Shown here: in pieces, positions 15,238-64,000 of the stretch | Numbering within the stretch: position 1 is the first letter of the stretch | How the letters are laid out: each line of letters opens with the position of its first letter | Assembly: GCF_002159915.1 (NCBI RefSeq) | Contig: NZ_NFJP01000015.1 | Coordinates: forward strand, 1-64,000 | From: Gordonibacter sp. An230 | GTDB lineage: Bacteria > Actinomycetota > Coriobacteriia > Coriobacteriales > Eggerthellaceae | Direction of reading: 5' to 3' | Length of the DNA stretch: 64,000 nt | Made by a program: the position numbers and the translations under genes | The notes under the pieces: model-generated | The model's input: the letters and a program-made list of their open reading frames with translations, nothing else | What the model was told of the DNA's origin: nothing | Databases searched by the model: none

Positions 15238-18071
15238 CAGATCACATCCTTCGTGACGGGCTCTGATTGCAGGGTGGGCATGAACGGTTGGAACTCCCTG
15301 GCCTCGGTCCAGATGTTGGCGGGTTTCTCGCCCTTCTCGATTTTCACGGTGAATCCGCGGTTGGTGTAGGTGCCGATAGCCGGATTGAACGGCGCGTCGC
15401 TCTTCGTGAGGACGTTGACGTTGCATTCGCGCCAGCCAGCGGTTTTGTTTGGCTGGGACTCGTCGAAGCACTCGGGGTTCCAGAAGCGCTCCATCCACAC
15501 GCAGCGCGGGTTCACGCCTTCGGTGAGGTAGGCTCGCGCCGATATGCTGCCGCGACGGCTGGACACCTTCACCCAGTCCATGTGCGCGATTCCGTGCTCG
15601 GCGGCCGTTGCTGGGTTGATACGGATCTCCGCAGTGGGAAACAGCTCGCGGGCGAATGCCGAATGGCGCATCGTTCCGTGGTGGAAGTACGGTACGCGCC
15701 CGGAGGTGAGGACGAGCGGGAACTCCTCATCGGTAAGGGGGCTTTCGGCGGGCTCCACGTAGGTGCAGATGGGGCTGTAATCATCGCAGGGATCTTGCGG
15801 CTCAGGATAGGTGTACGGATATCCGGTTCGCGCCAGCTTGAGGTACAGCGAAGCGTAGGGTTCAAGCTTGCGCGATTCCGTGCCGAAGCCTGCGGGCAGT
15901 CCGTCGTCGACGATCATCTCGTGCTGGTTGTACACGTAGTATTTGTCTTCGGGCGTGACTTTGGGAACGTACGTGTCGATGTTAGCCTGCAGGTCGTCCC
16001 AGCTTTCCGCGCCGAAGGTCTTGGCGCAGCTTGCCTTGACGGCCTCCTCGGTGGCTTCGCCGACGTACGCGTTGGGGACGCCGGGAAGCGTGCCGCCCCA
16101 CTTCTCCTTGCACCTCTCCAAGATCTGTGCGGTGGGAATGGAGTGCGACACCGTCTCGCCGATATGGGTGCATTCGTTTTGCAGAAACACCATGTTGAGG
16201 TGCTTGTGGTCGGTGAGCGGCTCCTCAAGCCATTCGCGCGTGGGGAACACGAGGTCGGCCGCCTCCACGTGAAACGAGGTGAGCATGGGGTATTGGCAGA
16301 TGCAGTAGTCGATCTCCGAGATGGCGTCGTACCACGACGAGGCATTGGCCAGCATGGCCAGCTTGTTGCCCGACACGTCGAACCACAGCCGCGGTTTGTA
16401 GGGCTCGCCGGTGGTGATGGCTTGCAGCACTGAGGGGATGTGCACCATGAACCAGGTATGCAGGCCCTTGTGGGCGGTGGTGCCTAGGCCGTCTTTGTAC
16501 ATTTGGTTGACCATCTTTTGGATTTCGGGCATCTCTTGCGCGGCTTTCTCCATACGCGCCTGGTTCGCGGCATCCGACAGCCCCGGAATGGCGCAGCAGC
16601 CGTATTTGGTCATCGTTTGAGGGGCGTTTTGCGTCGTGCGCTTCATCGGGATGCTCGCCGGGCCCTTCTTGGTGATCGACGCGCCGGGCTTGTTGATATA
16701 GCCCATGATGATGTCGAGGCCGATGGCGCCGATGGATGCTTCGGACGACTGCGGGTGTTGGTCGGTCGCCACGCCGTGGCAGATGCCGCCGGTGGTGCCG
16801 TCGTCATCGGCGTGGGTGTACAGGCGGATAGCCGCTTCGATCTTGTCGGCCTCGAGCCAGCAGATATCGGCTGTGTGCTCGAGCGTCCAGGGGTCGGCCT
16901 CGTCGGCGTATATCTTGCCTGCGGTGCGGTAGGTCTTGCCGTTCACTTCGCCCTCCCAGAACACCTCGGGATCGACCAGGGCATCCTTGGGAGCCGAGAA
17001 CTCGAAGGGGGTTAGTGCGTTGGTCTTGAGGTCGAAGCAGACATAGGCGGGCGTGTCGTCGGGCGTGGATTGCGCGAAATCGGGGAACAGCTCGCTGGCC
17101 AGCACGGGCAGCTTCGTGTCCGGATCGATGAGGAAGGGCAGGTTCGTCCAGTACTTCGTGAACTCTTTGTTGTAGAGCTTGTTCTCGAAGATGTAGCGGA
17201 ACCAGCACAGCATGAGCGCGGTGTCGGTGCCTGGCCGGATGGGCAGCCACACATCGGCTTTGGTGGCATCGGGGCTGAAATTCGGGTCGATGACGACGGT
17301 CTTCACGCCGTTCGCGCGCAGTTCGGCCATGCCGCGACCGGATTGCGCGGTCTGCGAGACAGACGGCTGCGCACCCCAGATCACGATCACCTCGGATGCG
17401 TTGTCGTTGACCTTGAAGAACTCGGTGGACATGCTGTCCGCCACCGATTGGGTCTGATTGTCGCCAACCATGAACACGGTCGCGCAAACGCGCGGCATCA
17501 GGCATTGGGCGGCTCCCGGTTCGAAAATGTTGGGGGAGCCCAGCGACACGCAGGTGGTTTTGATCTGGTTGGACGAGTACGATCCGCCACCGCCTGTACT
17601 ACCAAAGAACGCATAGGGGCCGTACTTGTCGATGGTGTCGACGATGTGGGTGGCTGCCTCCTCGATGGCTTCGTCCCAAGAGATGATCTCCCATTTGTTT
17701 TCGCCGCGCTCGCCCGCACGGCGCAGGGGATGCAGGATGCGGCGCGGACTGTACATGGTTTGCAACTGGTTGAGGCATTTGGGGCAGATGGAACCGCGCG
17801 ACTCTCCGCCGTTGGGATCCCCCATGAGCTTGACTACCACGCCGTCTTTCAGGTAGGCGAGTACGGGACAGTGGCCCAGGCAGCCATGACAGCAGGTTTT
17901 CTTTATCTCGTCGTACTCAACCTTCTTGCGCTGGTCGCCTGCGCCAATCGTCGCCGAACTCGACGACGACTCCGTCATGCAGCCGCTCATGCTTGCGCCA
18001 ACGGCCGCAGCCGCGCCCGCAAGCAGCGCGCCTTGGACGAACGTACGGCGTGACAGATTCGCTCTCGTCAT
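15237..18071 (-). CDS. TAT-exported molybdopterin oxidoreductase, DMSO reductase family
   Basis: This 944-residue catalytic subunit has a twin-arginine signal (SRRTFVQGALL) and a possible lipobox (MSGC). Its N-terminal [4Fe-4S] motif is CX2CX3C (CHGCLGHC) with a fourth Cys in ICPKC. Molybdopterin-guanine-dinucleotide domains follow (GTDTALMLCWF; C-terminal DEEFPLVLTSGR and MDWVKVSSRRG). The Cys in GAAQCLMPR is a candidate Mo ligand. ATG 18071 follows AAGGAGGAGACGCT. The acceptor is not evident: it may be an S- or N-oxide, or an arsenate- or polysulfide-type substrate. The divergent operon supplies a TorD-like chaperone, fitting maturation of this enzyme. Confidence 0.87.
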   Translation of the reverse strand: MTRANLSRRTFVQGALLAGAAAAVGASMSGCMTESSSSSATIGAGDQRKKVEYDEIKKTCCHGCLGHCPVLAYLKDGVVVKLMGDPNGGESRGSICPKCLNQLQTMYSPRRILHPLRRAGERGENKWEIISWDEAIEEAATHIVDTIDKYGPYAFFGSTGGGGSYSSNQIKTTCVSLGSPNIFEPGAAQCLMPRVCATVFMVGDNQTQSVADSMSTEFFKVNDNASEVIVIWGAQPSVSQTAQSGRGMAELRANGVKTVVIDPNFSPDATKADVWLPIRPGTDTALMLCWFRYIFENKLYNKEFTKYWTNLPFLIDPDTKLPVLASELFPDFAQSTPDDTPAYVCFDLKTNALTPFEFSAPKDALVDPEVFWEGEVNGKTYRTAGKIYADEADPWTLEHTADICWLEADKIEAAIRLYTHADDDGTTGGICHGVATDQHPQSSEASIGAIGLDIIMGYINKPGASITKKGPASIPMKRTTQNAPQTMTKYGCCAIPGLSDAANQARMEKAAQEMPEIQKMVNQMYKDGLGTTAHKGLHTWFMVHIPSVLQAITTGEPYKPRLWFDVSGNKLAMLANASSWYDAISEIDYCICQYPMLTSFHVEAADLVFPTREWLEEPLTDHKHLNMVFLQNECTHIGETVSHSIPTAQILERCKEKWGGTLPGVPNAYVGEATEEAVKASCAKTFGAESWDDLQANIDTYVPKVTPEDKYYVYNQHEMIVDDGLPAGFGTESRKLEPYASLYLKLARTGYPYTYPEPQDPCDDYSPICTYVEPAESPLTDEEFPLVLTSGRVPYFHHGTMRHSAFARELFPTAEIRINPATAAEHGIAHMDWVKVSSRRGSISARAYLTEGVNPRCVWMERFWNPECFDESQPNKTAGWRECNVNVLTKSDAPFNPAIGTYTNRGFTVKIEKGEKPANIWTEAREFQPFMPTLQSEPVTKDVI

Positions 18072-18184
18072 AGCGTCTCCTCCTTTTTGGTGCCGTGGAT
18101 AGAACGTGTAAGCGCAGTATGGCAACCGCGGCAGAAGGGTGAAACGCCCAAACTGAACCGAAGTCAGAGAATGCGTTGGGGCGA

Positions 18185-18203
18185 CCGACCCAATTTGTGT
18201 CGG
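18185..18203. promoter_or_regulatory. Operator-like inverted repeat in the Dms-type divergent gap
   Basis: CCGAC and GTCGG flank a nearly symmetric core (CCAATTTGT) in the gap between the molybdopterin gene (start 114 bp away) and the divergent operon. The position matches the inverted repeats of the other cassettes, but the sequence differs. LuxR3 as binder is inferred. Confidence 0.4.
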
Positions 18204-18353
18204 TTTGAGGTGGGTTGGCTGCGAAAAGCACGCAGCGTGCGTCTGGCCAGCGGAACCGAGAGGCCGCACAATGCCGGACGAGAGGCGGACTCGCATCGGG
18301 TTCTACGGACGGGGGCGATCTGTGCACGTACGTAGACGCAGATAGGAGGAGAC

Positions 18354-41224: not shown

Positions 41225-42907
41225 TTACTCCGCCAGGCTTTTCGCGATCATGCGGGCGAATGTGACCGTGCGTCCGCAGGCGTTGCCGGTGGAGAGGTTC
41301 GGGTAGGTCATGGAGTAGTATCCGCCCGAATCGTTGCCGGTCACGTAGAGGCCTTCGATCACGCTGCCATCCGCGCGCAGCGCTTGCCCTCGGGTGTTGA
41401 TGCGGACGCCGTCCAAGGTGCACAGCAGCATGCCGGTGTTGCGGATGCCGTAGAACGGAGGGTTGCGCACAGGGGAGAGGCGGAACGGCTCTTTGCCGAA
41501 GTCGGGATCATTCTGGTTGTCGTAGTTCTCGTTGTTGCGCTCCACGGTTGCCGCGAGCGCATCGGCCGGCAGGCCGAGCTTCTCGGCTAGCTCTTCGATG
41601 GTGTCGGCCTTCTGGATGTAGCCTTTGGCCTCGAGCTCTTCGTTCATGCCCGAGATCGCCTGGATGGGGATGTTCGGCGCGGCGCCGTTGTCGAAGGGAA
41701 AGAGGCGCGAGCATCCATGCATGTCGAACTGCTCGGCATAAGTTGCGAAATCGGCGTCCCACAGCGTGACGTGGATGGAGCCGGGTTGCTGGGCGTCGGA
41801 ATGCAGCACGAAGTCGTAGGTGCCGGATTCGTTGCAGAAACGCTCGCCGTTCAGGTTCACCTTGAGCCACGGTTGGCTTCCCATCCAGAACAGCGCGCCC
41901 ACGCCGCAATCCGCTCCGCCGAGCGAGTCGGCCGGCAGGCCGCCGCGGTCGAACAGCATGCTGTAGTGCGTGTCGTCCATTTTCGCGCCCGCCCACAGGC
42001 ACGCTTTGATGCCGTCTCCCTCGCAGCCGGGCTGAGCGGAGTTGAACCCGTATATGCTCGTGGTGTGCGGTTGCAGAGCTTTCTGCATATCGACGTTGAT
42101 GCCGTAGCCTCCGGTGGACACGAGCACGCCTTTGCTGGCGTTCACCTTGACGTACCCGTCTTCGCCTTTCCCGATGGCGCCGACCACCTTCTCATCTTCC
42201 ATTACCAGTTTGACCATGGGGGTGTTGTAGCGAAACGTCACATGCCCGGTTTTCTCTGCGTAGTCGGTGAGCACGGTGAAGCCGTCAAGCGATTCGTCTT
42301 CCGGCCAGGCGGGCGAATGGCCGGTTGCCCAATGCTTGTAGTTCGTCTCGTGCTTTTCGTCGGCTGCTTCGTGCCACAGCTTCACGCCGTATTGGCTGAG
42401 AACGGTTTCGTACCAGTCGATGGTCTCTCCCGACCTCTCGAACCAAGTTCTGTGGAGGTCGAGATTGCATTGGCCTGCGGCATAGTGGTTCATGTCGAGC
42501 AGGTATTCCTGCAGGTCCATCGTGTAGCCGCTTTCTTGCTGAAGGCGGGAGTTCACGCCTCCGACATCGTCTCGCACAACGCCGCCGTTGTACTTCTCCA
42601 GGACGAACGTTTCGACGCCCTCTTCTCCGGCGGCGCATGCGGCGAACAAGCCGCCTGTTCCGGCGCCGACGATCAAGAACTCGGTGTCGACGGTTTCGAC
42701 GATGTCGCTTTCCTCGATGACTGGCTCTGAGCCGAGCCAGTCGACAGAAGAGCTGCCGTTCTCGGCCTCTTCCTTCTGCAGGTCGCTTTTCTGCTTCGGT
42801 GCGCATCCGGCCAATCCCAGAACGGCGCCGGTGCTTGCCAAGGCGGTCGTTGCAAGGAAGCTTCGTCGAGAGAGGCCTCGTGTCCGTGGTTGGCTTTTGG
42901 TGCTCAT
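41225..42907 (-). CDS. TAT-exported FAD-dependent reductase
   Basis: This 560-residue flavoprotein has a twin-arginine signal (LSRRSFLATT), a lipobox (LAGC), an FAD motif (LIVGAGTGGLFAACAA) and a C-terminal flavin contact (IEGLYVTGNDSGGYYS). The fumarate reductase Arg/His motifs are missing: after the flavin contact it reads YPNLSTGNACGRTVTF. It belongs with the flavoprotein at 54550 rather than that at 3617. ATG 42907 follows AAAGGAGAAAA. It is divergent from LuxR4, which probably regulates it. No cytochrome lies in the cassette. Substrate unknown. Confidence 0.82.
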   Translation of the reverse strand: MSTKSQPRTRGLSRRSFLATTALASTGAVLGLAGCAPKQKSDLQKEEAENGSSSVDWLGSEPVIEESDIVETVDTEFLIVGAGTGGLFAACAAGEEGVETFVLEKYNGGVVRDDVGGVNSRLQQESGYTMDLQEYLLDMNHYAAGQCNLDLHRTWFERSGETIDWYETVLSQYGVKLWHEAADEKHETNYKHWATGHSPAWPEDESLDGFTVLTDYAEKTGHVTFRYNTPMVKLVMEDEKVVGAIGKGEDGYVKVNASKGVLVSTGGYGINVDMQKALQPHTTSIYGFNSAQPGCEGDGIKACLWAGAKMDDTHYSMLFDRGGLPADSLGGADCGVGALFWMGSQPWLKVNLNGERFCNESGTYDFVLHSDAQQPGSIHVTLWDADFATYAEQFDMHGCSRLFPFDNGAAPNIPIQAISGMNEELEAKGYIQKADTIEELAEKLGLPADALAATVERNNENYDNQNDPDFGKEPFRLSPVRNPPFYGIRNTGMLLCTLDGVRINTRGQALRADGSVIEGLYVTGNDSGGYYSMTYPNLSTGNACGRTVTFARMIAKSLAE

Positions 42908-43000
42908 GGGTTTTCTCCTTTTGGTTTCCTTTGGCTTTTGCGGGCCTGGTGTGCCGCGATTCGGGAACGCATCCTAGGGCCGTTTCGGCGCAGCTGCATC

Positions 43001-43013
43001 ACCCACAGTGGGT
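43001..43013. promoter_or_regulatory. Operator-like palindrome between flavoprotein and LuxR4
   Basis: ACCCAC-A-GTGGGT is a perfect palindrome 94 bp from the flavoprotein start and 74 bp from the LuxR4 start. A TAGGAT -10 for the flavoprotein (42971-42976, minus strand) would put its -35 directly beside the palindrome. Binding by LuxR4 is inferred. Confidence 0.5.
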
Positions 43014-43086
43014 AATTTTTCATGCGACCAGATGAGAAGCTTGTTTCGTCGGTTTTGGGAAAAGGGGATTCGGCTACAATGGGAGC

Positions 43087-44547
43087 ATGTTGAAATCGCA
43101 TGGCAGGAGGGAAAAGGGGTTTGCGCTGTCGGGGCGCTTGTCTGTCCTTGGACGGAGTTTCGCGCTGGCGTTGTTGGCGCTGAGCAGCTGGTCGTTGAAT
43201 GCCCATCTGTTCCCGTTGTACGACACGCAGCTGTCCTCCATTCGGGAGCTGTGCACGTTGTCGAACGGCGTCGCGCTTGCGCTGTTCGCCGTCGTGTCGA
43301 CCTGCCGTCCGCGCATGCTGCGCAATCAGGTGCTCGCGTGCGTGGCGTCGTGCGGCGTTGTTGGGGGCTCCCTGCTCGTGTGGGCTGGCGACCAATCGGG
43401 GTTGGCGGGGGTCATGCTGGCAGGGGCCTGCCTCATCTCTGTTGCGGAGGGCGCATGCACGATCCTCGTGGGCATCTTTCTGTGCTCGATTCCGAAAAAG
43501 CCTGCGGCTGCGAGCATAGTTGCGGGCCTGCTGCTCTGCGACGCAGCGAAGCAGGTGTGCCCGGTTGGCTACTCCGAGCTCGCGCTTGCGGTTCACGCCG
43601 CCCTTCTGCTCGGGGCGATCCTCCTGGCGAATCCGACAGCCCGGGAAACGGTGGAGAAGCTGTCGCAGGGCGAATCGCCGCACGACATGGCGATCACGCA
43701 GCCCCTGTCGTTCCTGCCGTTCGGACATCGGCTGTTCATGTGCCTGCTCCTGTTCAGCGCCGTGCAGGGGTTCATGCTTACGTTCGGCGAAACCGGCGGC
43801 ATCCCCGCAGTATCGCCTTGGAGCCTAGCGGTTCTCCTCCTGTTGCTTGCGACCGCCTGCTGGTTTCCCCGTCGGTTGACGTCAGACGCTCTGCTGAAGC
43901 TTGCCATGCTGCTTGCCATTGCGGGGCTTTTGTTGGTTCCCGCCTCCGGCTTGACGGGGTTCTTTGTTTCGAATGGTCTGATCAGTTGCGGTATAGCGGT
44001 GTTCAGCGTGTTTCAGTGGATCGTGCTCACGACGTTGGCTCGGCGCAATGCGCACGGCGCCGTCTCCGCGTTCGCGTGGGGCTCTGCGATGCATGCGGTG
44101 GGAGTCATCCTAGGAGCGAACGCCGGTCGATTCGTGAACCATTACTGGACCAGCGACGTCCAAGTGGTGGTCTTGGCGGTGGCGGTCATCGTGTTTTGCC
44201 TGGTGGCGTTTATGACGATCCTCCTACAGCATGTGAGTTTCGAAAAGACTATCAGCGAAGTTCGCGAAAGCGCCCCTCTCGTCATCGCCGCCCCTGCCGA
44301 AGACGCGGTTGAGGAAAGGGCTTTGACCATCGATGAGCGATGCGATGCCGTCTCCCGGCAACACGGGCTGACGAAACGGGAGACCGAGGTTCTTCGCCTG
44401 CTGGCGCGTGGGAGGACGGGGGTGTTCATCCGGCATGAGCTGTGCGTGTCGTACAACACGGTCAAGGCGCATGTGAAGCACATATATCAAAAGCTGGACG
44501 TTCACACCCATCAAGAGCTGATCGACCTGGTCGAGGACTACGAGTGA
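43087..44547 (+). CDS. LuxR-family regulator with multi-pass membrane domain (LuxR4)
   Basis: This 486-residue protein has about twelve hydrophobic segments and a C-terminal LuxR helix-turn-helix (LTKRETEVLRLLARG, VSYNTVKAHVKHIYQKLD, HTHQELIDLVED). It is divergent from the flavoprotein at 41225-42907. ATG 43087 has GGGAGC three bases upstream, a compact site. No G run is present here, unlike LuxR1-3. A long open frame in another phase over the same DNA is composition-driven and not a gene. Confidence 0.85.
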   Translation: MLKSHGRREKGFALSGRLSVLGRSFALALLALSSWSLNAHLFPLYDTQLSSIRELCTLSNGVALALFAVVSTCRPRMLRNQVLACVASCGVVGGSLLVWAGDQSGLAGVMLAGACLISVAEGACTILVGIFLCSIPKKPAAASIVAGLLLCDAAKQVCPVGYSELALAVHAALLLGAILLANPTARETVEKLSQGESPHDMAITQPLSFLPFGHRLFMCLLLFSAVQGFMLTFGETGGIPAVSPWSLAVLLLLLATACWFPRRLTSDALLKLAMLLAIAGLLLVPASGLTGFFVSNGLISCGIAVFSVFQWIVLTTLARRNAHGAVSAFAWGSAMHAVGVILGANAGRFVNHYWTSDVQVVVLAVAVIVFCLVAFMTILLQHVSFEKTISEVRESAPLVIAAPAEDAVEERALTIDERCDAVSRQHGLTKRETEVLRLLARGRTGVFIRHELCVSYNTVKAHVKHIYQKLDVHTHQELIDLVEDYE

Positions 44548-52507: not shown

Positions 52508-54022
52508 TCATTCCCAGCCGGGCTTGCCCACGCCTCCCTGCTCGATGGTGTCGAGCAGCCCCTGCCGGTCGAACACGCCCACTTTTCGGTAGATGCTGCT
52601 CACGTGGTGTTTCGCCGTGCCTTGGGCGATGGAGAGCTTGTCGCAGATGGCGCGCACGGTGCGTCCGCGCGCCAATAGCACGAGCACTTCGGCCTCGCGG
52701 TTCGTGAGGCGGCACATCTGTGCGATGCGGCCGCATTTCTCTTCGAGGCTCGCATCGATCGGTTCGGCGTGCGGTGTGGCGTAAAGCTTCTGCACGTCGG
52801 TTTGCGTGAGAAACAGCATGCCCACCAGCACGAGCGCCAGCACCCCGACGAGAAGCGCCGCGGAGCGCGTCTCGTCCGACCACAGTGCCGAGTTCAGCAG
52901 CCCGTCCGCGCCGATGGAGCCGACGAGCGTTCCCGTGCGTGCGCAAAGGATGACCAACCCGAACGACAACGCCACGGGAATGCGCCCCCGAAAGGCCACG
53001 TCGGTGGACACGAGCATCATGAGCATGTCGAGGCAGTACACCCCCATGATGACGAGCCCTGCGCCCAAAAAGCGGTATGGCTCGGGCAGCAGCAACAGCA
53101 GGATGAGGCCCGCCGCCATGGCGGGGATGACGGGGCGGTACAGCGCAATAGGCTCGGCTTCGGAGGGTGCCACCGCCATCGACAGCGTGATCGCGGCAAG
53201 GGCGAGCCCGGCAAACAGCATCGTTTTGAACATGAAGGGCCCGTCGTCGCTGGCGAACGTGTTCACCATGCCTTGCGAAAGGCCGTACACCATGCTGATA
53301 ACCACGATGCAGCAAAGGATGCGCACTGTGGGTACGGTGCGCATATCGATCGGCAGCACCGAAGGCTCGCGGCGCGGTTCTTGCTTGCAAGCCGCAAGGA
53401 CCGCAGCCGACACGATGGGAAGCGCTGCCGTGAACGCCGCACCTGCTGCGCTGGGCAGCGCGGACGCTATGAAGAACAACACGAAGGCGAATGTGTAGGA
53501 CACGTAGAGGTGTCGCCCGACGCGACCGGTTGCGAGCGCGCTCCACAGTTCGCCCCACATGATGAGCAGGAGCGCATTGCCTGCGGACGCGGCGATTGCG
53601 GCAGCGAGGAAGCAGGCGAAGCCCGCTGCGCCCGAGCATGCCGAGAGCGACGCCGGCAGCAGCGCGGTGCCCGCGGCGGTCAGCCCTCCGGCCAATGCGA
53701 GGCACGGGCGACGGATGAGAAACGGAGAGAGCCTCCGCGACAGCGTCACCACCCCCACGTATCCTGCGGTGGTGAGCGCGAGCACCCAAAGGGTCGTGTT
53801 TCCGGCGGTGGGGTAGTGCTCGGTAGTGGGCAGCACGATGCCCGTGCACATGCTGATCATCCACCATGCCTGCCAAAATCCCAAGCCGAGCAATCGCCAG
53901 CCGGAGAACCCCGAGCGGCCCTTGCCGCTCTCGCGCCGTGTCCGCTCTGCGAGACTGCCCGTCCCTTCGCGCTGCGTGTGCTCTGCGGACCTTTCTGTTC
54001 CCTCGCATTGCGTTCGTCCCAT
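52508..54022 (-). CDS. LuxR-family regulator with multi-pass membrane domain (LuxR5)
   Basis: This 504-residue protein has about twelve hydrophobic segments. Its C-terminal LuxR domain (LTNREAEVLVLLARG, IAQGTAKHHVSSIYRKVG, FDRQGLLDTIEQ) is more diverged than in the other five, especially in the recognition helix and the final helix. ATG 54022 has GAGGGGTGGGGA upstream. TTGCAT and TAGGTT with a 17-bp spacer (54064-54092, minus strand) form a good promoter. It is divergent from the flavoprotein at 54550 and inferred to regulate it. Confidence 0.85.
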   Translation of the reverse strand: MGRTQCEGTERSAEHTQREGTGSLAERTRRESGKGRSGFSGWRLLGLGFWQAWWMISMCTGIVLPTTEHYPTAGNTTLWVLALTTAGYVGVVTLSRRLSPFLIRRPCLALAGGLTAAGTALLPASLSACSGAAGFACFLAAAIAASAGNALLLIMWGELWSALATGRVGRHLYVSYTFAFVLFFIASALPSAAGAAFTAALPIVSAAVLAACKQEPRREPSVLPIDMRTVPTVRILCCIVVISMVYGLSQGMVNTFASDDGPFMFKTMLFAGLALAAITLSMAVAPSEAEPIALYRPVIPAMAAGLILLLLLPEPYRFLGAGLVIMGVYCLDMLMMLVSTDVAFRGRIPVALSFGLVILCARTGTLVGSIGADGLLNSALWSDETRSAALLVGVLALVLVGMLFLTQTDVQKLYATPHAEPIDASLEEKCGRIAQMCRLTNREAEVLVLLARGRTVRAICDKLSIAQGTAKHHVSSIYRKVGVFDRQGLLDTIEQGGVGKPGWE

Positions 54023-54112
54023 AAGCCGTCCCCACCCCTCGCGTCCCGTATCGCTTCGACGAGAACCTAGCAAATCGGTTAGTCGGATGCAAGCGCGCAA
54101 AAAGCCGAATGG

Positions 54113-54133
54113 TATGGGCCACTGTGGCCCATA
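54113..54133. promoter_or_regulatory. Perfect 21-bp palindrome between LuxR5 and flavoprotein
   Basis: TATGGGCCAC and GTGGCCCATA flank a central T. The site lies 91 bp from the LuxR5 start and 20 bp upstream of its -35, but over 400 bp from the flavoprotein start. The core CCAC-N-GTGG is shared with the palindrome at 43001. The stretch 54134-54549 contains no supported gene and may be a long leader. Confidence 0.6.
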
Positions 54134-54549
54134 TGCCGTTGTTCTGCGAAAATGGGTCGTTTTGTTCGATGACCGGATCACTTCGCTTGTGCAGCATGGA
54201 CGGCGAAGGAAGAAGGCCGTCCGTCGGGCTGCGGTGCGGTTCGACGCGCGGCGTCGCAACTTGCTCGTAGCTTTCGTATCCGTTCGGGCGCGATGCCGGG
54301 TTTGCGGCCGAGGTTCAGCGCATCGCTCGCTGACGTGTGGCGTGTCGAAGGTGCTGCGTCGTTGCATCGGCGGTTGCGTGATGGTGCGATCTGCCCGTAA
54401 TTGCGGTGCTTCCCGACGCAGTGCTTACGGGACCTGCGCGCTAGTTCGCGGAGGGTTCCCGGCGTTGCTCGCGCCGCGTGTCGGAGGTCTCCTTCCCAGC
54501 GTTGTTGACGGGGCTGAGGGGTCTCGCGATCGAACGAAAGGGGTTTCTC

Positions 54550-56220
54550 ATGACGAAAAGCTTGAAGGGCGGGTTGTCCCGCCGCGCGTTTCTCGGGCTG
54601 GGCGTCACTGCGGCTGTCGCCGCCGGAGCCGGCTTGGCCGGCTGTGCACCCGCGACGAACACGGGCGACGGCGCGAAGGGGGCTGGCGACGGTGCGTCCG
54701 GCACCGGGTCGGGCGAAGCGCGCTACGCGTGGGAGGTTGCGCCCGAGCCCATCACCGACATCGCCAACACGGTGGACACCGACACCCTCGTCATCGGCGC
54801 GGGCCTGGCCGGTTGCGCGTGCGCTGCTGCGGCGGCCGAGAAGGGCGGCAAGGTGACCGTCGTCGAGAAGACGTCCAGCTGGAACGGCCGCGGCGGCGGT
54901 TTCGGCGCCATCAACTCGCACTACATGGACGAGCTGGGCATCAAGGTGGACAAAGTGAACGCCAAGCAGCACTGGATCGCCCAGTGCGCGAGCCGCGCGA
55001 ACGAGGATCTCATCACGAAGTTCTTCAACAACTCCGAGGAGGCGTCGAACTGGCTGCTGGCGAAGGCCGAGGCTGTGGGCGGCACCGCGATGGTGGGCGC
55101 GTTCTACAGCCACGACGACGTGTATGCCGAGCAGCCTGGATACCACATGCTCACGATTCCCGAGGAAGCGGGCCTCACCTCTACGGGCTTCGCCGGCGCC
55201 GAGCTGTGCTACAACGACGCCGTGCGCGACGGGGCCGAGTTCGTGTTCGATTCGCCAGCCGTTCAGCTGGTGAAAGAGGGCGCGAAGGTCGTCGGCTGCA
55301 TCTGCGAGACGGACGACGGCTACGTGCGGTACAACGCCAGCAAGGGCGTGGTGCTGTGCACGGGCGACATCGGCGGCGATGCCGAGATGGTGAAGGCGTA
55401 CGCCCCCATCTGCGCCGAGTACGGTCAGCCCCGCAGCCAGTACACGCCGGTGGGCGTGAACACGGGCGACGGCCACAAGATGGGCATGTGGGCCGGCGCG
55501 CAGCTCCAGGACCTGCCGCTTCCCACGATGATGCACCCGCAGGCGTTCTGCTGGTTCCACGGGCCGTTTTTGTTCGTGAACGACAACGGCGAGCGCTTCA
55601 TGTGCGAGGACACCTGGGTGCAGGGCAAGTCGCTGGCCATCAACCGCCAGCCCAACGGCGAGGCGTGGTCCATCTTCGACGCCAACTGGAAGGCCGACCT
55701 CGTGAACGGCCTGCCCTACGGCGGCGGCATGTTCTGGGACTCCTTCCGTCCCTACGGCAGCGACTTGGAGTTGGCGCCCCAGTACTTCGAGACGCAGATT
55801 CCCACCTACATCGAGGCCGGAAACGCGTACCAGGCCGACACGCTCGACGAGCTGGCCGAGAAGATCGGCTGCGACGCGGACACCTTCAAGGCCACGGTCG
55901 AGCGCTACAACGGCATGTGCGAGGCGGGCGAGGACACCGACTACTACAAAAAGCCCGTGTTCCTGACCCCGGTGAAGGAAGGGCCGTTCTATGCGCTGAA
56001 GGTCGGTCCGGCTTTGCTGGCCATCCCCGGAGGCCTGCGCACGAACGTCGACTTCCAGTGCCTTGATGCCGAGGGCCAGCCCATCGAGGGCCTGTACGCG
56101 CTCGGCAACGTGATGGGCGACATCTGCGCCGTGGACTACCCCATCAACGTGGCCGGCAACAGCCATGGACGCTGCATCACCTACGGGTATCTTCTGGGTC
56201 ACGAGCTGGCCGGGGCGTAA
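54550..56220 (+). CDS. TAT-exported FAD-dependent reductase
   Basis: This 556-residue flavoprotein has a twin-arginine signal (LSRRAFLGLG), a lipobox (LAGC), a Ser/Gly/Asp linker, an FAD motif (LVIGAGLAGCACAAAAAEKGG) and a C-terminal flavin contact (IEGLYALGNVMG). As in the flavoprotein at 41225, the fumarate reductase catalytic Arg motifs are absent; the end reads YPINVAGNSHGRCITYG. Substrate unknown. ATG 54550 has GAAAGGGG upstream. It stands alone between the LuxR5 gap and a terminator, so electrons come from outside the cassette. Confidence 0.83.
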   Translation: MTKSLKGGLSRRAFLGLGVTAAVAAGAGLAGCAPATNTGDGAKGAGDGASGTGSGEARYAWEVAPEPITDIANTVDTDTLVIGAGLAGCACAAAAAEKGGKVTVVEKTSSWNGRGGGFGAINSHYMDELGIKVDKVNAKQHWIAQCASRANEDLITKFFNNSEEASNWLLAKAEAVGGTAMVGAFYSHDDVYAEQPGYHMLTIPEEAGLTSTGFAGAELCYNDAVRDGAEFVFDSPAVQLVKEGAKVVGCICETDDGYVRYNASKGVVLCTGDIGGDAEMVKAYAPICAEYGQPRSQYTPVGVNTGDGHKMGMWAGAQLQDLPLPTMMHPQAFCWFHGPFLFVNDNGERFMCEDTWVQGKSLAINRQPNGEAWSIFDANWKADLVNGLPYGGGMFWDSFRPYGSDLELAPQYFETQIPTYIEAGNAYQADTLDELAEKIGCDADTFKATVERYNGMCEAGEDTDYYKKPVFLTPVKEGPFYALKVGPALLAIPGGLRTNVDFQCLDAEGQPIEGLYALGNVMGDICAVDYPINVAGNSHGRCITYGYLLGHELAGA

Positions 56221-58672: not shown

Positions 58673-60115
58673 CTACTGGGGTTTCTCGATGAGGTTTATC
58701 AGCTCTTGCTGCGAATGGATGTCCAGTTTGCGATATATGTGCTGTCGATGCATCGAGACCGTGCTTTTGGAAACGCAGAGCGCGGTGCGGATGTAGTCGA
58801 GGTTGCGTCCCTTGGCGAACAGGATCATCACCTCGGTCTCTCGGTTCGACAGTCCGTGTTTTTCTGCGAGCGATGTGCAGCGTTGCATGAACTGTCCGCT
58901 TGGGATGCGCTGTCGGCTTGCCGTGAGCTTTTTGAGGTCGCTTTCGGTGAACAGCGTCAGATACGAGAGCAGCAGCAGTAGCGTGCTCGTCAGCATGAGC
59001 GGGAAATAGAAGGTGGATGCCTCGGACGTCGCGTTCGCAAAGCGCCAGATCCCGTGCCCTGCGCACGAACCCACGAAAAGGAGCGACTGGGTCAGGCAGA
59101 AGACGCGCACGCGCCCCTGCGCGCCTTGTCGGGGCATGCAGAGCACGATAGCCCAGGAAAAGCACATCGCACACCGAAACACCGCCATGTGGATCGGCAG
59201 CCATAATGCGGCGTGAAGCGCCGGGTCGATCGGAGCGAGCGGAAGGAGCTGCGCGGCGATGCACGCGAAAACCACGACTCGGTAACATGGCGCAAGCCAC
59301 GAATCGTCTTTGGATCGCGCGGCCGCCATGCCGATGGCCGCTACGCCGAGCACCGTTGTGAGCGTGTACAGCCCTTCCCATACGGTGCCGGAGATGGGGA
59401 TGCCGTTCGCGTCCATCAAGCTGTAGTATCCGATGCGCGCGTTGTCGTGGGCCACGCCGACGACGGAGAGCGCAGCGCCGAGGCGGATTGCGGGACGCAG
59501 CCGTTCCCGGTCGACGCCTGAGAGGAAGGCGGGGGAGGGCGCGGTCCGATCCGGGGGTTCGTCAGAGGGCAGATCGTCGGCCGAGAGCTTTCGCGAGGCA
59601 AGAAACGATCCTAAGAACAGCGCGAGGTACAGGGTGTTCGCCGATTGGGCAAACTGCTCTGGAAGGAGGGAGACGATGAGCGTGAGCACTGCGGCAAGAA
59701 TGAACCCCAGGCAGCAAATCGTGACGGAAGGGGCGGCTTTCCGCTTGGCGAGTTCGGCGAACTCCCCGATGATGCAGAGCGAGACGCATGCGCTCGCTGC
59801 GCACGAGCAAGCCGTCGCTGCAAGCGCGTTGTTTCCGGAGAGTGCGGCTTCCATGATGCCTGCGGCATAGAATGCAGCCACTGCAAGGATGATGAAAGAG
59901 CGGCTTCGTCTGAGCGCGCGCAGGATGCGGTTCGGTGCGCAGGCTGCGATCGCGAAGCAGAGCGTGGAGGCGAGCATCGTCGCGGTGAGGGGCCGCTGTC
60001 CGATCTGCTGCGCTTGGAACTGCGAGAACGTCAGGGCCGATTGGAAGCAGATGGAAGCTGCGAGAAGCACGTCGCCTTTTCCCATGCGTGGTATCGCTGC
60101 CAGAAACGACGGCAT
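58673..60115 (-). CDS. LuxR-family regulator with multi-pass membrane domain (LuxR6)
   Basis: This 480-residue protein has about twelve hydrophobic segments and a C-terminal LuxR helix-turn-helix (LSNRETEVMILFAKG, VSKSTVSMHRQHIYRKLD, HSQQELINLIEK). ATG 60115 follows GGGGAAAGGGGG; codons further upstream add a leader without membrane character. It is divergent from a molybdenum enzyme of catechol-dehydroxylase type. Regulators of this build are known beside such genes in Eggerthella and are linked to substrate induction, so control of 60357-64000 is inferred. Confidence 0.85.
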   Translation of the reverse strand: MPSFLAAIPRMGKGDVLLAASICFQSALTFSQFQAQQIGQRPLTATMLASTLCFAIAACAPNRILRALRRSRSFIILAVAAFYAAGIMEAALSGNNALAATACSCAASACVSLCIIGEFAELAKRKAAPSVTICCLGFILAAVLTLIVSLLPEQFAQSANTLYLALFLGSFLASRKLSADDLPSDEPPDRTAPSPAFLSGVDRERLRPAIRLGAALSVVGVAHDNARIGYYSLMDANGIPISGTVWEGLYTLTTVLGVAAIGMAAARSKDDSWLAPCYRVVVFACIAAQLLPLAPIDPALHAALWLPIHMAVFRCAMCFSWAIVLCMPRQGAQGRVRVFCLTQSLLFVGSCAGHGIWRFANATSEASTFYFPLMLTSTLLLLLSYLTLFTESDLKKLTASRQRIPSGQFMQRCTSLAEKHGLSNRETEVMILFAKGRNLDYIRTALCVSKSTVSMHRQHIYRKLDIHSQQELINLIEKPQ

Positions 60116-60227
60116 GCCGCATCGCCCCCTTTCCCCTCGGCCTTGCCTGCGGCAAGTGTAGCACATTCGTTCCGTCGTGCATTTCGTGCCTTTCGATGTT
60201 GTCGAGAATCCCCAGTTCAAAGGCATT

Positions 60228-60240
60228 GTGCTAGGAGCAC
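60228..60240. promoter_or_regulatory. Short palindrome between LuxR6 and the molybdoenzyme
   Basis: GTGCT-AGG-AGCAC lies 113 bp from the LuxR6 start and 117 bp from the molybdoenzyme start, the position of operator-like repeats in the other cassettes. It is short and differs in sequence, so support is weak. Confidence 0.35.
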
Positions 60241-60356
60241 GTATTTTGTCTTCTCGCGCAAAACGTGTTCCTGGCAGGTTTTGCCGCGCGCACGGAGGCT
60301 TTAGGGTTTTGTTCGACTCCGATTGGCAAGGGGCAAGGCGAGATAAGGAGGAGGCA

Positions 60357-63317
60357 ATGGGCAAGCTTATGCTTTCAAGGCGCAGCTTCGCCAAGGCTGC
60401 GGCGGTTACCATGGCGGCAGCGGGCGTTTCCGGCACGGCGAATATCGGCGCCGCGCTTGCGGAGCAGAGCGCAGACGGCGGCGCTGGCGAGGTGAAGCGC
60501 ATTCGCTCGTGCTGCCGCGGATGCGGCAAGATGGAGTGCGGCGTGTGGGTGACCGTGCGCGATGGCCGCGTCATCAAAACGGAGGGCGACGAGAGCGCGT
60601 TCCAGTCGGCTGGCAACCACTGCGCGAAGGGTCAGGCGTCGCTGCAGGCGGCGTATCATCCGGATCGCTTGCTGTATCCCCTGAAGCGCACCAACCCCAA
60701 AGGGGAGGATCCGGGATGGGAGCGCATCTCGTGGGACGAGGCTGTCAAGATGGTCGTGCAGGGCATAGAAACATGCCAGGAGAAGTACGGCAACCCCACG
60801 TTCTTCGGCATGAGCGGTACCTCGCGCGTGTGGTCGATGGGGGGATATTCCGCCCTGCCGGCGATTTTCGATAGCCCCAACGCCATCCGTGCCGACCAGA
60901 TCTGCAAAGGCCCTCGTTATTGGGCGAGCAAGATAAACGACTGCTGGAGCTGGTACTGGATGGAGACGGTCGGGCGTCCGCGCGTGTACGTGCAGTGGGG
61001 CGGCGCCTCGGAGCTGTCGAACTACGACGACAGCTGCCGCACGACCGTCGATGTGGCGACGCGCGCCGACAAGCACATCATCGTGGACCCGCGTCAGACG
61101 AATCTGGGCAAGGAGGCCGACATCTGGGTGAATCTGCGCCCCGGCACCGACGGCGCCGTTGCGAACTGCTGGGCCCAGGTGATCATCGAGAACGACCTCA
61201 TCGACGATTTGTACGTGCGCAGATGGATGAACGCCCCGATGCTCGTGGTGGAGGAGGAGAGCTTCGAACCGACCCCGTGCTCGTCCTCGCTGCAGTCCGC
61301 GTCCATCAAGACGCGCCTTTTGAAGGAGTCGGACATCAAGGAGGGCGGATCGGACACGCGCTTCATGGTGGTCAACGAGCTGACCGGAAACTTGAGCTGG
61401 TACGATGCCAGCCTCGATACGCCCGGATGGGAGGGCGAGGACTGGAAGCCCATGACCGAGGGAACCACGCCCCATCAACCCGGCCTGGATGCGACGGGCC
61501 AGAGTCAGGGCTTCCTGCCCAATCGCTCCCAATTTCCCGAAGGCCTGTATCCGGCGCTGTTCACCGAGGAGGGCGGCCGCGAGGTCGAGCTGAAGGACGG
61601 CACGAAGGTGCACGTGCGCACCGTGTGGGAGCGCTACATCGAGTTCCTCGAAGACTACACGCCCGAGAAGGTGGAGGAGATCAGCGGCGTGAAGGCCGAC
61701 GTGCTGCGCGAGGCGGCCATCACCTATGCGACGCCGGTCGATCCGGCCACCGGCTACGGCAACGGCGGCATCCAGTACATGTTGGCCGCCGAACATGCCT
61801 GCAACGCGTTGCAGAACCAGCGCGCGTGCGATCTGCTGGTGGGTATCACGGGCAACATGGACGTCCCCGGGGGTCAACGTGGGGGTACGCTTGCTTGGGA
61901 CGGCATGATGGACATCTGCACCTCCATCCCCTTCGGGGCCATGGCGATGAAGCAGTTCAAGTACAAAGACGACGGCAGCCTGCTTCTGGGCTCTGAGCGC
62001 TTCCCGCTCATCGGCTCGGATTGCAGCGAGGGATACGCGGATGCGACCAGCGTGTACGACGCCATCGAGACGGGGAGTCCGTACAAGGTGTCGTGCGGGG
62101 CGGGCTCCGCGGGCGACTTCATGAACCAGTCCAACTCCCTGAACGCCTACGAGCAGCTCAAGAAGCTTGATTTCTGGTGCTCGATCGATCTGTGGCACAC
62201 TCCCATGGTCGATGGGATCGCCGATGTGGTCTTGCCCGCCGCGCATTGGCTGGAGATGGACTGCCTGCGCAAGAGCCAAGGCGGCGCGGGTGCCTTGGGC
62301 GCAACGGTGAAGTGCATCGAGAGCCCGGGCGAGGCGAAGCCCGATCAGGAGATACTCATGCGCTTGGCGAAGGAGAACGGCACGCCGTGGCTTCCCGGTG
62401 CGACGCCTGACGAGATGTGGCCGGTCGATAACGCTCTCTACGCCGTGAACAGCTTCGTTTTGAGCATGGGATTTCGCATCAAGGATTGGGAGGAGTACAA
62501 AAAGGAATTCCAGGAGAAGGGCTGGTTCGATCTCAAGGTGGAAAACCCCGACCATTGGGGAAGCTATCGCCGTTACGAGACGGGCAACGTCGATTTCGCT
62601 GCGAAGAACCCCGGGTGGCGCACCACTACGCACAAGCAGGAGATATGGTCGACGGTTCTCGAATCGTGGCTGATCAACGGCGTGCACAACGACGGCAAGC
62701 CGGTGAAGCTTCCCGATTCCGACGAGGAGTTTCAGCAAAACGAAGTGTTCCCCGTCTTCCGAGAGGCCCCGCATAGCCCGGTGGCCGATCCTGACGCCTA
62801 CAAAGACGACAACGCCTTCCTCATGACCACGGGACGTCGGCAAGGCACCTACTTCCACAGCGAGCATCGCCAGCTTCCGTGGTGCCGCGAGCTGTGGCCG
62901 GTGCCGCGTTTGGAGATCAACCCTCAGGATGCCGAGCGGCTGGGCATCGAGCAGGGCGACTGGGTGTGGATCGAAACGGAGCATGGCAAGATTCGCGAGG
63001 TTGCGGACCTGTACTACGGCATCGCTCCCGGCGTGGTGAACGCCGAGCATCAATGGTGGTACCCGGAAGCGAAGCAGCCTGATCGCGGCTTCAAGCTCTC
63101 CGGAGTGAACTGCTTGGTAGACCGCCATGCGCAGGATCGCATCATCGGCTCGTCCAACCTGCGCGCTTATGCGGTGAAGGTGTACAAGGCGACGCCGGAG
63201 AACAGTCCGTTCGGCAATCCGGTTCCCTGCATGGACGACGGCACGGAGGTCATCCATACAAGCGACGATCCGCGTTTGAAGGACTGGATGCCCGTCTATG
63301 AAAGGAGCGGCGAGTAA
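60357..63317 (+). CDS. TAT-exported molybdopterin enzyme, catechol-dehydroxylase-like
   Basis: This 986-residue DMSO-reductase-family enzyme has a twin-arginine signal (LSRRSFAKAAA) without lipobox. An N-terminal Fe-S motif (CCRGCGKMECGV with a later NHCAKG), AYHPDRLLYPLKRTNPKGE, VYVQWGGASELSNYDDS and DPRQTNLGKEADIWVNLRPGT follow. These blocks match, from memory, the Eggerthella/Gordonibacter catechol dehydroxylases (Dadh, Hcdh, Cldh, Dodh), which remove the para hydroxyl of catechols. The Cys in DQICKGPR is a candidate Mo ligand. Which catechol it uses cannot be told. ATG 60357 follows AAGGAGGAGG. The Fe-S partner gene overlaps its stop (TAATG). Confidence 0.8.
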   Translation: MGKLMLSRRSFAKAAAVTMAAAGVSGTANIGAALAEQSADGGAGEVKRIRSCCRGCGKMECGVWVTVRDGRVIKTEGDESAFQSAGNHCAKGQASLQAAYHPDRLLYPLKRTNPKGEDPGWERISWDEAVKMVVQGIETCQEKYGNPTFFGMSGTSRVWSMGGYSALPAIFDSPNAIRADQICKGPRYWASKINDCWSWYWMETVGRPRVYVQWGGASELSNYDDSCRTTVDVATRADKHIIVDPRQTNLGKEADIWVNLRPGTDGAVANCWAQVIIENDLIDDLYVRRWMNAPMLVVEEESFEPTPCSSSLQSASIKTRLLKESDIKEGGSDTRFMVVNELTGNLSWYDASLDTPGWEGEDWKPMTEGTTPHQPGLDATGQSQGFLPNRSQFPEGLYPALFTEEGGREVELKDGTKVHVRTVWERYIEFLEDYTPEKVEEISGVKADVLREAAITYATPVDPATGYGNGGIQYMLAAEHACNALQNQRACDLLVGITGNMDVPGGQRGGTLAWDGMMDICTSIPFGAMAMKQFKYKDDGSLLLGSERFPLIGSDCSEGYADATSVYDAIETGSPYKVSCGAGSAGDFMNQSNSLNAYEQLKKLDFWCSIDLWHTPMVDGIADVVLPAAHWLEMDCLRKSQGGAGALGATVKCIESPGEAKPDQEILMRLAKENGTPWLPGATPDEMWPVDNALYAVNSFVLSMGFRIKDWEEYKKEFQEKGWFDLKVENPDHWGSYRRYETGNVDFAAKNPGWRTTTHKQEIWSTVLESWLINGVHNDGKPVKLPDSDEEFQQNEVFPVFREAPHSPVADPDAYKDDNAFLMTTGRRQGTYFHSEHRQLPWCRELWPVPRLEINPQDAERLGIEQGDWVWIETEHGKIREVADLYYGIAPGVVNAEHQWWYPEAKQPDRGFKLSGVNCLVDRHAQDRIIGSSNLRAYAVKVYKATPENSPFGNPVPCMDDGTEVIHTSDDPRLKDWMPVYERSGE

Positions 63318-64000
63318 TGACTCAGTACGCGATCCTCACCGATCTCAGTAAATGCGTGGGTTGCTTGGCGTGCAGCGTCGCATGCAAGGTAGTGAACGAC
63401 GTTCCTTTGGGCTCGTATTGGAACAAGGTGCTGCGCGTGGGGCCGAACCCTCGCACGGAGGGCGGCCAGTGGCCCGATGTGTACATGTACTTCCTCACCA
63501 TTCAATGCCAGCACTGCAAAGAGCCCGAGTGTGTGAAGGTGTGCCCCACGGGCGCGACCCATAAGCTCGAGGACGGCACCGTCCAAGTGGACAAAGTCAA
63601 ATGCATCGGATGCCAGTTCTGCGTGATGGCCTGCCCCTACGGCGTCAGGTATCTGAACGAGAGCGAGCGCGTCGTGGAGAAGTGCACGCTGTGCGAGCAG
63701 AAGATCGCGCAAGGAGAGCTGCCCCAGTGCGTGAGCCAATGCGGGGGTCGTGCGCGATGGTTCGGAGACGTTGAGGCGGGAATCGAGAATTTCGAGGGAC
63801 CCGGAAACAATCCGGATGACCGCTCCTACGACGGCATGTCCTCTTACCGCGTGCGTTTGGGCGACGCCACGGGAGAAGGCCCCGACTTCCCGGTGAAACC
63901 GTACGAGGATTCCGAAGTGCACTACCTGCCTGACGCGGGCAACAAGCCCAGTTTCATGTACATACTGCGTGGCGAGAAATGGCAAGGGGGAGAGAACTGA
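63317..64000 (+). CDS. Four-cluster ferredoxin-type electron-transfer subunit
   Basis: This 227-residue DmsB-like partner has four [4Fe-4S] cysteine sets: CVGCLACSVAC, CQHCKEPECVKVCP, CIGCQFCVMACP and CTLC with a later QCVSQC. It should deliver electrons to the molybdenum enzyme encoded immediately upstream; the ATG overlaps that gene's TAA by one base. No signal peptide is present, so export with the catalytic subunit is expected. The gene is complete and ends exactly at the window edge; a membrane anchor gene may follow beyond it. Confidence 0.9.
   Translation: MTQYAILTDLSKCVGCLACSVACKVVNDVPLGSYWNKVLRVGPNPRTEGGQWPDVYMYFLTIQCQHCKEPECVKVCPTGATHKLEDGTVQVDKVKCIGCQFCVMACPYGVRYLNESERVVEKCTLCEQKIAQGELPQCVSQCGGRARWFGDVEAGIENFEGPGNNPDDRSYDGMSSYRVRLGDATGEGPDFPVKPYEDSEVHYLPDAGNKPSFMYILRGEKWQGGEN

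Follow-up and report, generated by a model that had tools for sequence, protein, structure and literature searches.

The end of the window (the whole 64-kb stretch of DNA that was analyzed) carries genes for a catalytic subunit (A) and an electron-transfer subunit (B), with the gene of a membrane LuxR-type regulator diverging from them across a shared promoter region (Table 1). Subunit A starts at the ATG at 60357, behind AAGGAGGAGG, with its stop at 63317. Both sequence blocks by which the preliminary description had likened it to the catechol dehydroxylases of Eggerthella were found, CCRGCGKMECGV at residues 52-63 and likewise VQWGGASELSNYD. The Tat motif SRRSFAKA lies close to the N-terminus, and the protein scored above the cut-offs of three Pfam bis-MGD domains (Molybdop_Fe4S4, Molybdopterin and Molydop_binding) and under the curated cut-offs of all 24 NCBIfam families listed. 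Among 138 family genomes, 50 have a match to A at E <= 1e-100, which together with the Pfam domains makes a chance resemblance implausible. In an AlphaFold model of A (pLDDT 84.8), the best fold match was acetylene hydratase (PDB 2e7z; Z 32.5, 690 aligned, rmsd 2.4), with polysulfide reductase (Z 31.3) and perchlorate reductase (Z 31.2) close behind. Acetylene hydratase is also the closest solved relative by sequence (E 4.2e-45, 25% identity); it hydrates acetylene and is not known to have a B or C subunit.

The four-cluster Fe-S subunit announced behind the catalytic gene is indeed there: subunit B has 16 cysteines and four [4Fe-4S]-type motifs, and is 73-78% identical to the B subunits of eCadh-clade operons. 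A third subunit gene, C, starts at the last base of the window (contig C7, about 64000-64893), and its product was assigned as a membrane anchor by similarity to other C subunits. One operon therefore combines a Tat signal on A, a 4Fe-4S subunit B and a membrane anchor C, which is the subunit layout of Eggerthella-type dehydroxylases in the description drawn on here (PMC7028382). The divergent regulator has a GerE domain (Pfam, E 7.9e-12), and a simple Kyte-Doolittle scan found 8 hydrophobic segments in it, against 9 in the E. lenta eCadh regulator. With several helices in an N-terminal membrane domain and a LuxR HTH at the C-terminus, it belongs with the 10-12-TM LuxR regulators, of which DadR, HcdR and CadR are reported to have this same order of domains and to be encoded near a dehydroxylase (PMC9734109). 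The dedicated membrane LuxR of the preliminary description thus agrees with a published arrangement.

Table 1. Features of the locus, with positions in the window.
Feature	Position	Strand	Basis
Catalytic subunit A, 986 aa, bis-MGD molybdenum catechol dehydroxylase (predicted), Tat signal	60357..63317	+	Pfam, tree, AlphaFold model
Electron-transfer subunit B, 227 aa, four [4Fe-4S] motifs	63317..64000	+	Pfam Fer4_11 and others
Membrane LuxR-type regulator, divergent, 480 aa	58673..60115	-	GerE domain
Divergent promoter region, 241 bp	60116-60356		
Residues 176-200 of A, around presumed Mo-ligand Cys183	60882..60956	+	Clustered substitutions
Regulator HTH segment STVSMHRQHIYRK	58727..58765	-	Met in place of Thr
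Candidate operator, degenerate CATSRTGC-N5-GCAYGATG	60222..60246	+	Matrix and pattern scans

Placement among characterized catechol dehydroxylases

The check proposed in the preliminary description, placement in a tree of characterized dehydroxylases, put the protein among the Eggerthella-type enzymes rather than outside their clade. Together with eCadh (Elen_0515, which acts on ring-opened (-)-epicatechin) it fell in one clade of 18 rows (SH-aLRT 100), 16 of which formed a clade at 100/100 in a more careful tree. The query and its sibling UBA5906 branch outside a core that includes the E. lenta and E. sinensis enzymes and the two other Rubneribacter enzymes; this core stands without the query at 100/100 in the careful tree, and an AU test argued against grouping the query with the Rubneribacter enzymes (p 0.009, for a group picked after the first tree). 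Identity to eCadh was 73.6% over 959 columns (71.3% by blastp, 74% in the genome search), the highest among the seven characterized E. lenta enzymes that make up our reference set (neither Gordonibacter-type enzymes nor the (-)-Eldh2 of strain A2 are among them). The others followed at 54.5% (Cadh, (+)-catechin), 51.0% (Dadh, dopamine), 48.2% (Vadh), 46.2% ((+)-Eddh), 44.0% (a partial Hcdh) and 43.5% ((-)-Eldh1); Cadh and Dadh share the Eggerthella-type architecture with the query but belong to other clades. Considering that the cut-off in print for homologues is >75% identity over 85% coverage (PMC11887054), the enzyme falls outside the eCadh orthogroup by identity as well as by core-clade membership. 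The substrate, left open in the preliminary description, is narrowed in that the nearest placed characterized enzyme is eCadh.

For the reference identities, we relied on gene counting in the E. lenta genome G055, which gave Elen_0497, 0501, 0511 and 0515 the same spacing as in print; Cadh was taken as Elen_0507 by elimination. Between references, blastp gave 52.7% for Cadh-eCadh and 51.5% for Cadh-Dadh (printed values 52 and 50.9), and the Dadh of G055 has Ser506 and matches both published dadh primers, as expected of DSM 2243. We also considered the query as a counterpart of (-)-Eldh2 of strain A2, for which 46% identity to (-)-Eldh1 is reported (PMC11887054); its 42.7% to (-)-Eldh1 by blastp speaks weakly against this. 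Six residues of the query (C183, K184, R187, W214, S221 and N222) are identical in 84 of 84 dehydroxylase rows, an arginine occupies the position equivalent to Dadh 506, as in the active Dadh variant, and 52 of the 83 residues diagnostic of eCadh are kept. Tree and layout together support assigning the locus to the Eggerthella-type catechol dehydroxylase class, with the activity as a prediction from sequence.

Divergence of the active-site segment, sensor and palindrome

Derived changes on the branch of the query and UBA5906 are clustered beside the presumed Mo ligand Cys183, which aligns with the cysteine that acetylene hydratase has at its sequence position 138. Residues 176-200 (20 eligible columns) hold 10 of the 30 derived changes, a count reached in 0 of 500 permutations. 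Because three of these ten (178, 181 and 193) also occur in the deeper row L018, we used a stricter count, which leaves 7 of 25 derived changes in the segment and was reached in 2 of 500 permutations. At the ten changed positions, the residue of the core is kept ten times in the deeper row L044 and seven times in L018. These branch changes are read from two sequences, the query and UBA5906 (a MAG, L012/L189), the latter frame-split near its 3' end.

The sensor is strongly diverged as well. In the 138 family genomes, with at most 11 candidates scored in each, its best matches were regulators from the eCadh clade and from the clade sister to it, led by those of UBA5906 (38%) and of E. lenta eCadh (33%); while it has the domain plan of DadR, HcdR and CadR, it forms a sensor lineage of its own among the candidates scored. 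Aligned with the eCadh regulator, its membrane part shows 21.8% identity, compared with 58.6-62.1% for the E. sinensis regulator and the two other Rubneribacter regulators. In the HTH segment STVSMHRQHIYRK, the query and UBA5906 have a methionine where a threonine is found in the other 15 eCadh-clade regulators examined. In a LuxR tree of 66 rows, the sensor fell outside the group of eCadh and sister regulators; a careful 28-row tree did not resolve its position, and grouping it with the eCadh-clade sensors was not rejected by the AU test (p 0.214 and 0.417). We therefore make no case for a sensor swapped in from an unrelated regulator, as fast divergence from a common origin fits equally well. 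Nor does sensor divergence alone imply a new substrate, because L059 has a similarly diverged sensor and an unchanged segment 176-200.

The promoter region contains a palindrome related to that of eCadh, with a changed right half. With an operator matrix built without the query and UBA5906 sites, the candidate operator was the top match on both strands of the window. A looser palindrome pattern matched twice in the whole genome, one match being the query site, where a control pattern matched 0 times; the control pattern matched once each in G055 and G097. The matrix lacks specificity for the eCadh clade: 23 other promoters outscore the query site (15.2), and four of these belong to the (+)-Eddh clade (19.9, 18.1, 17.4 and 15.3). 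An initial 32-base promoter match gave 18/32 at the E. lenta eCadh site, not above shuffles (maximum 19), a miss that we think is due to a one-base shift; the shorter palindrome does recover this site. When the promoters of Dadh, Cadh, Eddh, Vadh and the query were put through a simple scan for inverted repeats, none stood out clearly against shuffled sequences. The parts of the founding paper that we drew on describe no DNA target for this regulator family, and the palindrome is a candidate target for part of this large family.

Interpretation of the locus

We propose that the product of the locus is an Eggerthella-type catechol para-dehydroxylase, inducible, anchored in the membrane and built of three subunits. 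Subunit A would be exported by the Tat route and hold the bis-MGD molybdenum and one [4Fe-4S] cluster, B would relay electrons through four clusters, and C would anchor the complex; the LuxR would sense the catechol and turn on the operon by binding the palindrome. Since the active-site segment, the sensor and the operator changed on the same branch, the preferred substrate is probably not that of eCadh, and would be a related bulky polyphenol-derived catechol. We thus lean, by a narrow measure, towards a cousin of eCadh, a catechol dehydroxylase whose specificity has probably shifted. The new specificity raised in the preliminary description gains from the clustered changes and the diverged sensor, while the shift itself is what we infer from them. 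Two Gordonibacter dehydroxylases that are 74% identical are reported to differ in site selectivity (PMC11887054). Somewhat short of an even chance, in our judgment, is the wider proposal that the whole sensing and dehydroxylating module was re-specified as a unit, with a circuit insulated from that of eCadh and aimed at a polyphenol not linked to any dehydroxylase, and with CATSRTGC-N5-GCAYGATG as the operator of this membrane LuxR group. The range of plant polyphenols, neurotransmitters and drugs that gut bacteria convert depends on their catechol dehydroxylases, and a substrate is assigned for a minority of these enzymes. The query, which by its sequence belongs to a known polyphenol-dehydroxylating family and may act on a different compound than eCadh, offers a small, concrete case of specificity, in which a 25-residue segment and the sensor differ from an enzyme of known substrate.

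It is distinctly less than evenly probable, though a serious prospect, that the enzyme is nothing more than this species' own eCadh, acting on ring-opened (-)-epicatechin with a drifted sequence and a fast-evolving regulator. The close match to eCadh, the retained diagnostic residues and the sensor orthology that was not rejected all fit this, as does the genome, which holds no second match above 56%. Against it stand the identity below the printed cut-off, the position outside the core that holds both other Rubneribacter enzymes (AU test on a post hoc group), a chromosomal place other than that of the core-clade Rubneribacter enzymes, and the ten changed positions, where L044 keeps every core residue and L018 seven. 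That the enzyme belongs to this clade but is a bis-MGD reductase working on a non-catechol, be it another aromatic or a non-aromatic acceptor, strikes us as very unlikely: the fold alone is common to many reductases, and we know of no assay for any member of the query-plus-UBA5906 branch, but the query is nested among characterized catechol dehydroxylases, with the six invariant residues and the arginine of active Dadh.

Least probable of all, we consider, is a horizontally acquired cassette in decay, cut off from the accessory genes it would need and perhaps no longer expressed. The closest relative is found in a different genus (G097) and not in congeners, and the accessory genes lie on another contig than the locus, in contrast to eCadh. 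However, the A, B, C and LuxR frames are all open, a ribosome-binding site precedes A, and the operator-like palindrome is in place. Two of the accessory genes, moreover, occur in this genome: of the Eggerthella-type set (UvrD-like helicase, TorD-like chaperone, hypothetical protein and ferredoxins), the first two were searched, and genes of the eCadh-cluster type for TorD-like (80%) and UvrD-like helicase (53-56%) proteins were found on contig C31. In E. lenta, the set at the end of the cluster is reported to be required by Cadh and to have been used with the remaining enzymes of that cluster (PMC11887054). The genome analyzed here also has a separate Dadh orthologue, on contig C25. Nothing pointed to a mobile element. 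For Cber (Elen_0616), which makes the eCadh substrate, gene counting leaves two candidates rather than a single gene; the matches to one of them in Rubneribacter reach 40% at most, and the other shows 89-90% conservation across all three genomes.

Placement among characterised dehydroxylases

The preliminary description had proposed a candidate catechol dehydroxylase, to be checked by placing its catalytic subunit (the query) in a tree of characterised enzymes. From 144 distinct catalytic-subunit frames of at least 850 aa, 86 entered a quick tree, comprising the named references, own-genome paralogues, two outgroup rows, rows above 1150 bits, chosen loci and every third remaining row, with four rows excluded by name. 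There the query stands among characterised dehydroxylases, sharing an 18-row clade (SH-aLRT 100) with eCadh (Elen_0515), the E. lenta dehydroxylase of ring-opened (-)-epicatechin, to which it is 73.6% identical. It pairs with a metagenomic enzyme from UBA5906 (support 100; 81-83% identity), and this pair lies outside a 13-row core (support 100) that includes E. lenta, E. sinensis, R. badeniensis, R. avistercoris and Parvibacter enzymes. A more careful tree of 23 rows, including 16 of the 18 clade rows, concurs, with support of 100/100 for the core and 94/89 for the core joined by the query pair. An arrangement that unites this pair with the two Rubneribacter enzymes, picked after the first tree, was rejected (p-AU 0.009). 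Apart from UBA5906, no relative above 75% identity was found in the contig scan (75 loci kept), 138 family genomes and 396 genomes sampled from the class.

The reference set consists of seven E. lenta enzymes, (-)-Eldh2 and the Gordonibacter-type enzymes not having been located. In the genome used as E. lenta reference (G055; a single contig of 3,632,260 bases), genes counted over 594-674 kb, with one likely false open frame set aside, match the tag spacing of Elen_0497, Elen_0501, Elen_0511 and Elen_0515, which the available passages of PMC11887054 assign to El Vadh, (+)-Eddh, (-)-Eldh1 and eCadh. By elimination, Elen_0507 is Cadh; its blastp identities of 52.7% to eCadh and 51.5% to Dadh agree with the 52% (PMC11887054) and, for strain A2, 50.9% (PMC7028382) in the accessible text of those papers. 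The gene at 602 kb is Dadh: it matches both published dadh primers and has Ser at residue 506, as does the inactive form that the available part of PMC9734109 describes for DSM 2243. Least certain of the seven is Hcdh, a partial frame at 3.52 Mb assigned by its size and place among the matches.

Derived substitutions beside the presumed metal ligand

Among 564 columns invariant in the core (at least 12 of 13 rows), 50 differ identically in the query and UBA5906, and in 30 of these no more than one of the three deeper rows departs from the core state. Residues 176-200, with 20 eligible columns, hold 10 of the 30 derived changes (p 4.8e-9 for the best window), a number reached within any 25-residue window in none of 500 permutations; the stretch reads ANEICKGPRFYATKLNDSNAYSW in E. 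lenta vs ADQICKGPRYWASKINDCWSWYW in the query. Because the deeper row L018 has three of the ten changes too (178, 181 and 193), we also used a stricter count in which L018 must keep the core state as well, leaving 7 of 25 changes in this segment (p 7.4e-6; 2 of 500 permutations reach 7). The segment surrounds Cys183, invariant in all 84 rows. The first solved-structure match of the query's AlphaFold model, which is good (pLDDT 84.8), is acetylene hydratase, and Cys183 aligns with its sequence position 138 (Cys141 in chain numbering), which we take to be the tungsten ligand.

Operon, sensor and candidate operator

Features of the query locus and related loci (plain coordinates refer to the window; G000, query genome; C7, contig of the window; L009, query locus)
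Feature	Position	Strand	Length	Remarks
Catalytic subunit A	60357-63317	+	986 aa	Tat motif; three bis-MGD molybdenum oxidoreductase Pfam domains
Subunit B	63317-64000	+	227 aa	16 cysteines, four [4Fe-4S] motifs
C subunit (third gene)	starts at contig base 64000		about 295 aa	after B; without Pfam match
Membrane LuxR	58673-60115	-	480 aa	opposite strand to A and B
Top candidate-operator match	60222
Second bis-MGD molybdenum enzyme	15237-18296		1019 aa	distant from dehydroxylases; tree outgroup
FAD-binding reductase	52508-56220			adjoins divergent gene with LuxR HTH
FAD-binding reductase	41231-44547			adjoins divergent gene with LuxR HTH
Genes 3' of operon	L009:9927-14663 (C7, 65.9-70.7 kb)			MarR/HxlR-like regulator, EthD protein, MFS transporter, DcuC-like carrier
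Second eCadh-type copy, uncultured Parvibacter	L059:4972-6504			sensor strongly diverged; 176-200 segment unchanged
Dadh orthologue	G000:C25:25521-28565			Arg at 506-equivalent position (active variant)
Hcdh relative	G000:C11:7869-9095			support 100 (tree position)
Sister of (+)-Eddh group	G000:C12:192889-195984			tree position

Both the four-cluster Fe-S subunit and the divergent membrane LuxR of the preliminary description are borne out, and the best listed matches of the C gene, self excluded, are C subunits of other dehydroxylase operons (45-58% identity). Enzyme type, three subunits, accessory genes and membrane LuxR family are already published, as available passages of PMC11887054, PMC9734109, PMC7028382 and PMC11585353 describe. 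From their translations, the genes upstream read as ribosomal proteins L13 and S9; family scores of the MarR/HxlR-like regulator and the DcuC-like carrier downstream are weak. The reductase/LuxR pairs elsewhere in the window follow the same logic as dehydroxylase/LuxR pairs, with flavoenzymes.

A divergent LuxR lies within 0.9 kb of 72 of 113 catalytic frames, and 66 enzyme/LuxR pairs were compared after duplicate sources had been dropped and one pair added. In its membrane part the query regulator shares 14.9-21.8% identity with the 15 other regulators of the clade and 28.3% with that of UBA5906; for enzyme pairs at 72-78% identity (n = 29), the median sensor membrane-part identity is 37.1% and the minimum 17.4. 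In pairwise local alignments the query regulator reaches 34% with its UBA5906 counterpart and 30% with the regulator of E. lenta eCadh; that regulator itself shares 39-44% with sister-clade regulators. One position of the HTH segment is Met in the query and UBA5906 and Thr in the 15 other clade regulators; the only other Met among the 66 is in L065, a locus outside the clade.

CATSRTGC-N5-GCAYGATG recurs in the promoter regions of both the clade and its sister clade, the arms pairing at 6-9 of 9 positions in 12 listed sites, at 4 in the query and at 3 in UBA5906. A matrix built from 11 sites, with these two excluded, has its top match in the whole window upstream of the query (15.2 bits; next 14.4), a result that is partly circular, the sites having been found via this region's similarity; the query site ranks 24th among scanned promoters. 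A looser palindrome pattern matches twice in the whole query genome (control pattern 0) and two to three times in each of four others (controls 0, 0, 1 and 1). No description of this operator was found in the passages of PMC9734109 available or in a literature search covering few subscription journals. On the opposite strand, promoters of the (+)-Eddh clade (loci L072, L083, L084 and L015, and G055) carry CATCATGC...CATGATT, a palindrome of related form that is possibly the operator of the (+)-Eddh regulators.

Genomic place and other dehydroxylases

An accessory TorD-like gene lies about 6 kb from the core eCadh in R. badeniensis (G002:C60) and about 8 kb in R. avistercoris (G001:C75), and in E. 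lenta some 30 kb separate eCadh from the accessory genes, which stand at the opposite end of a five-enzyme cluster. The query is on C7 and its genome's accessory genes on C31. This placement suggests that the query was acquired separately or relocated and is not the resident eCadh. In a literature search on Rubneribacter and dehydroxylation, again with few subscription journals covered, the one paper listed concerned an Enterococcus strain.

None of the ten own-genome matches placed in the tree stands beside Cadh, Vadh or (-)-Eldh1. Six paralogues (on C31, C48, C34, C19, C14 and at C12:200950) have no close characterised neighbour in this tree, built without (-)-Eldh2 and Gordonibacter-type enzymes; the one on C31 is near the accessory genes. 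The Dadh orthologue, with its Arg506 equivalent, predicts that the query species would dehydroxylate dopamine.
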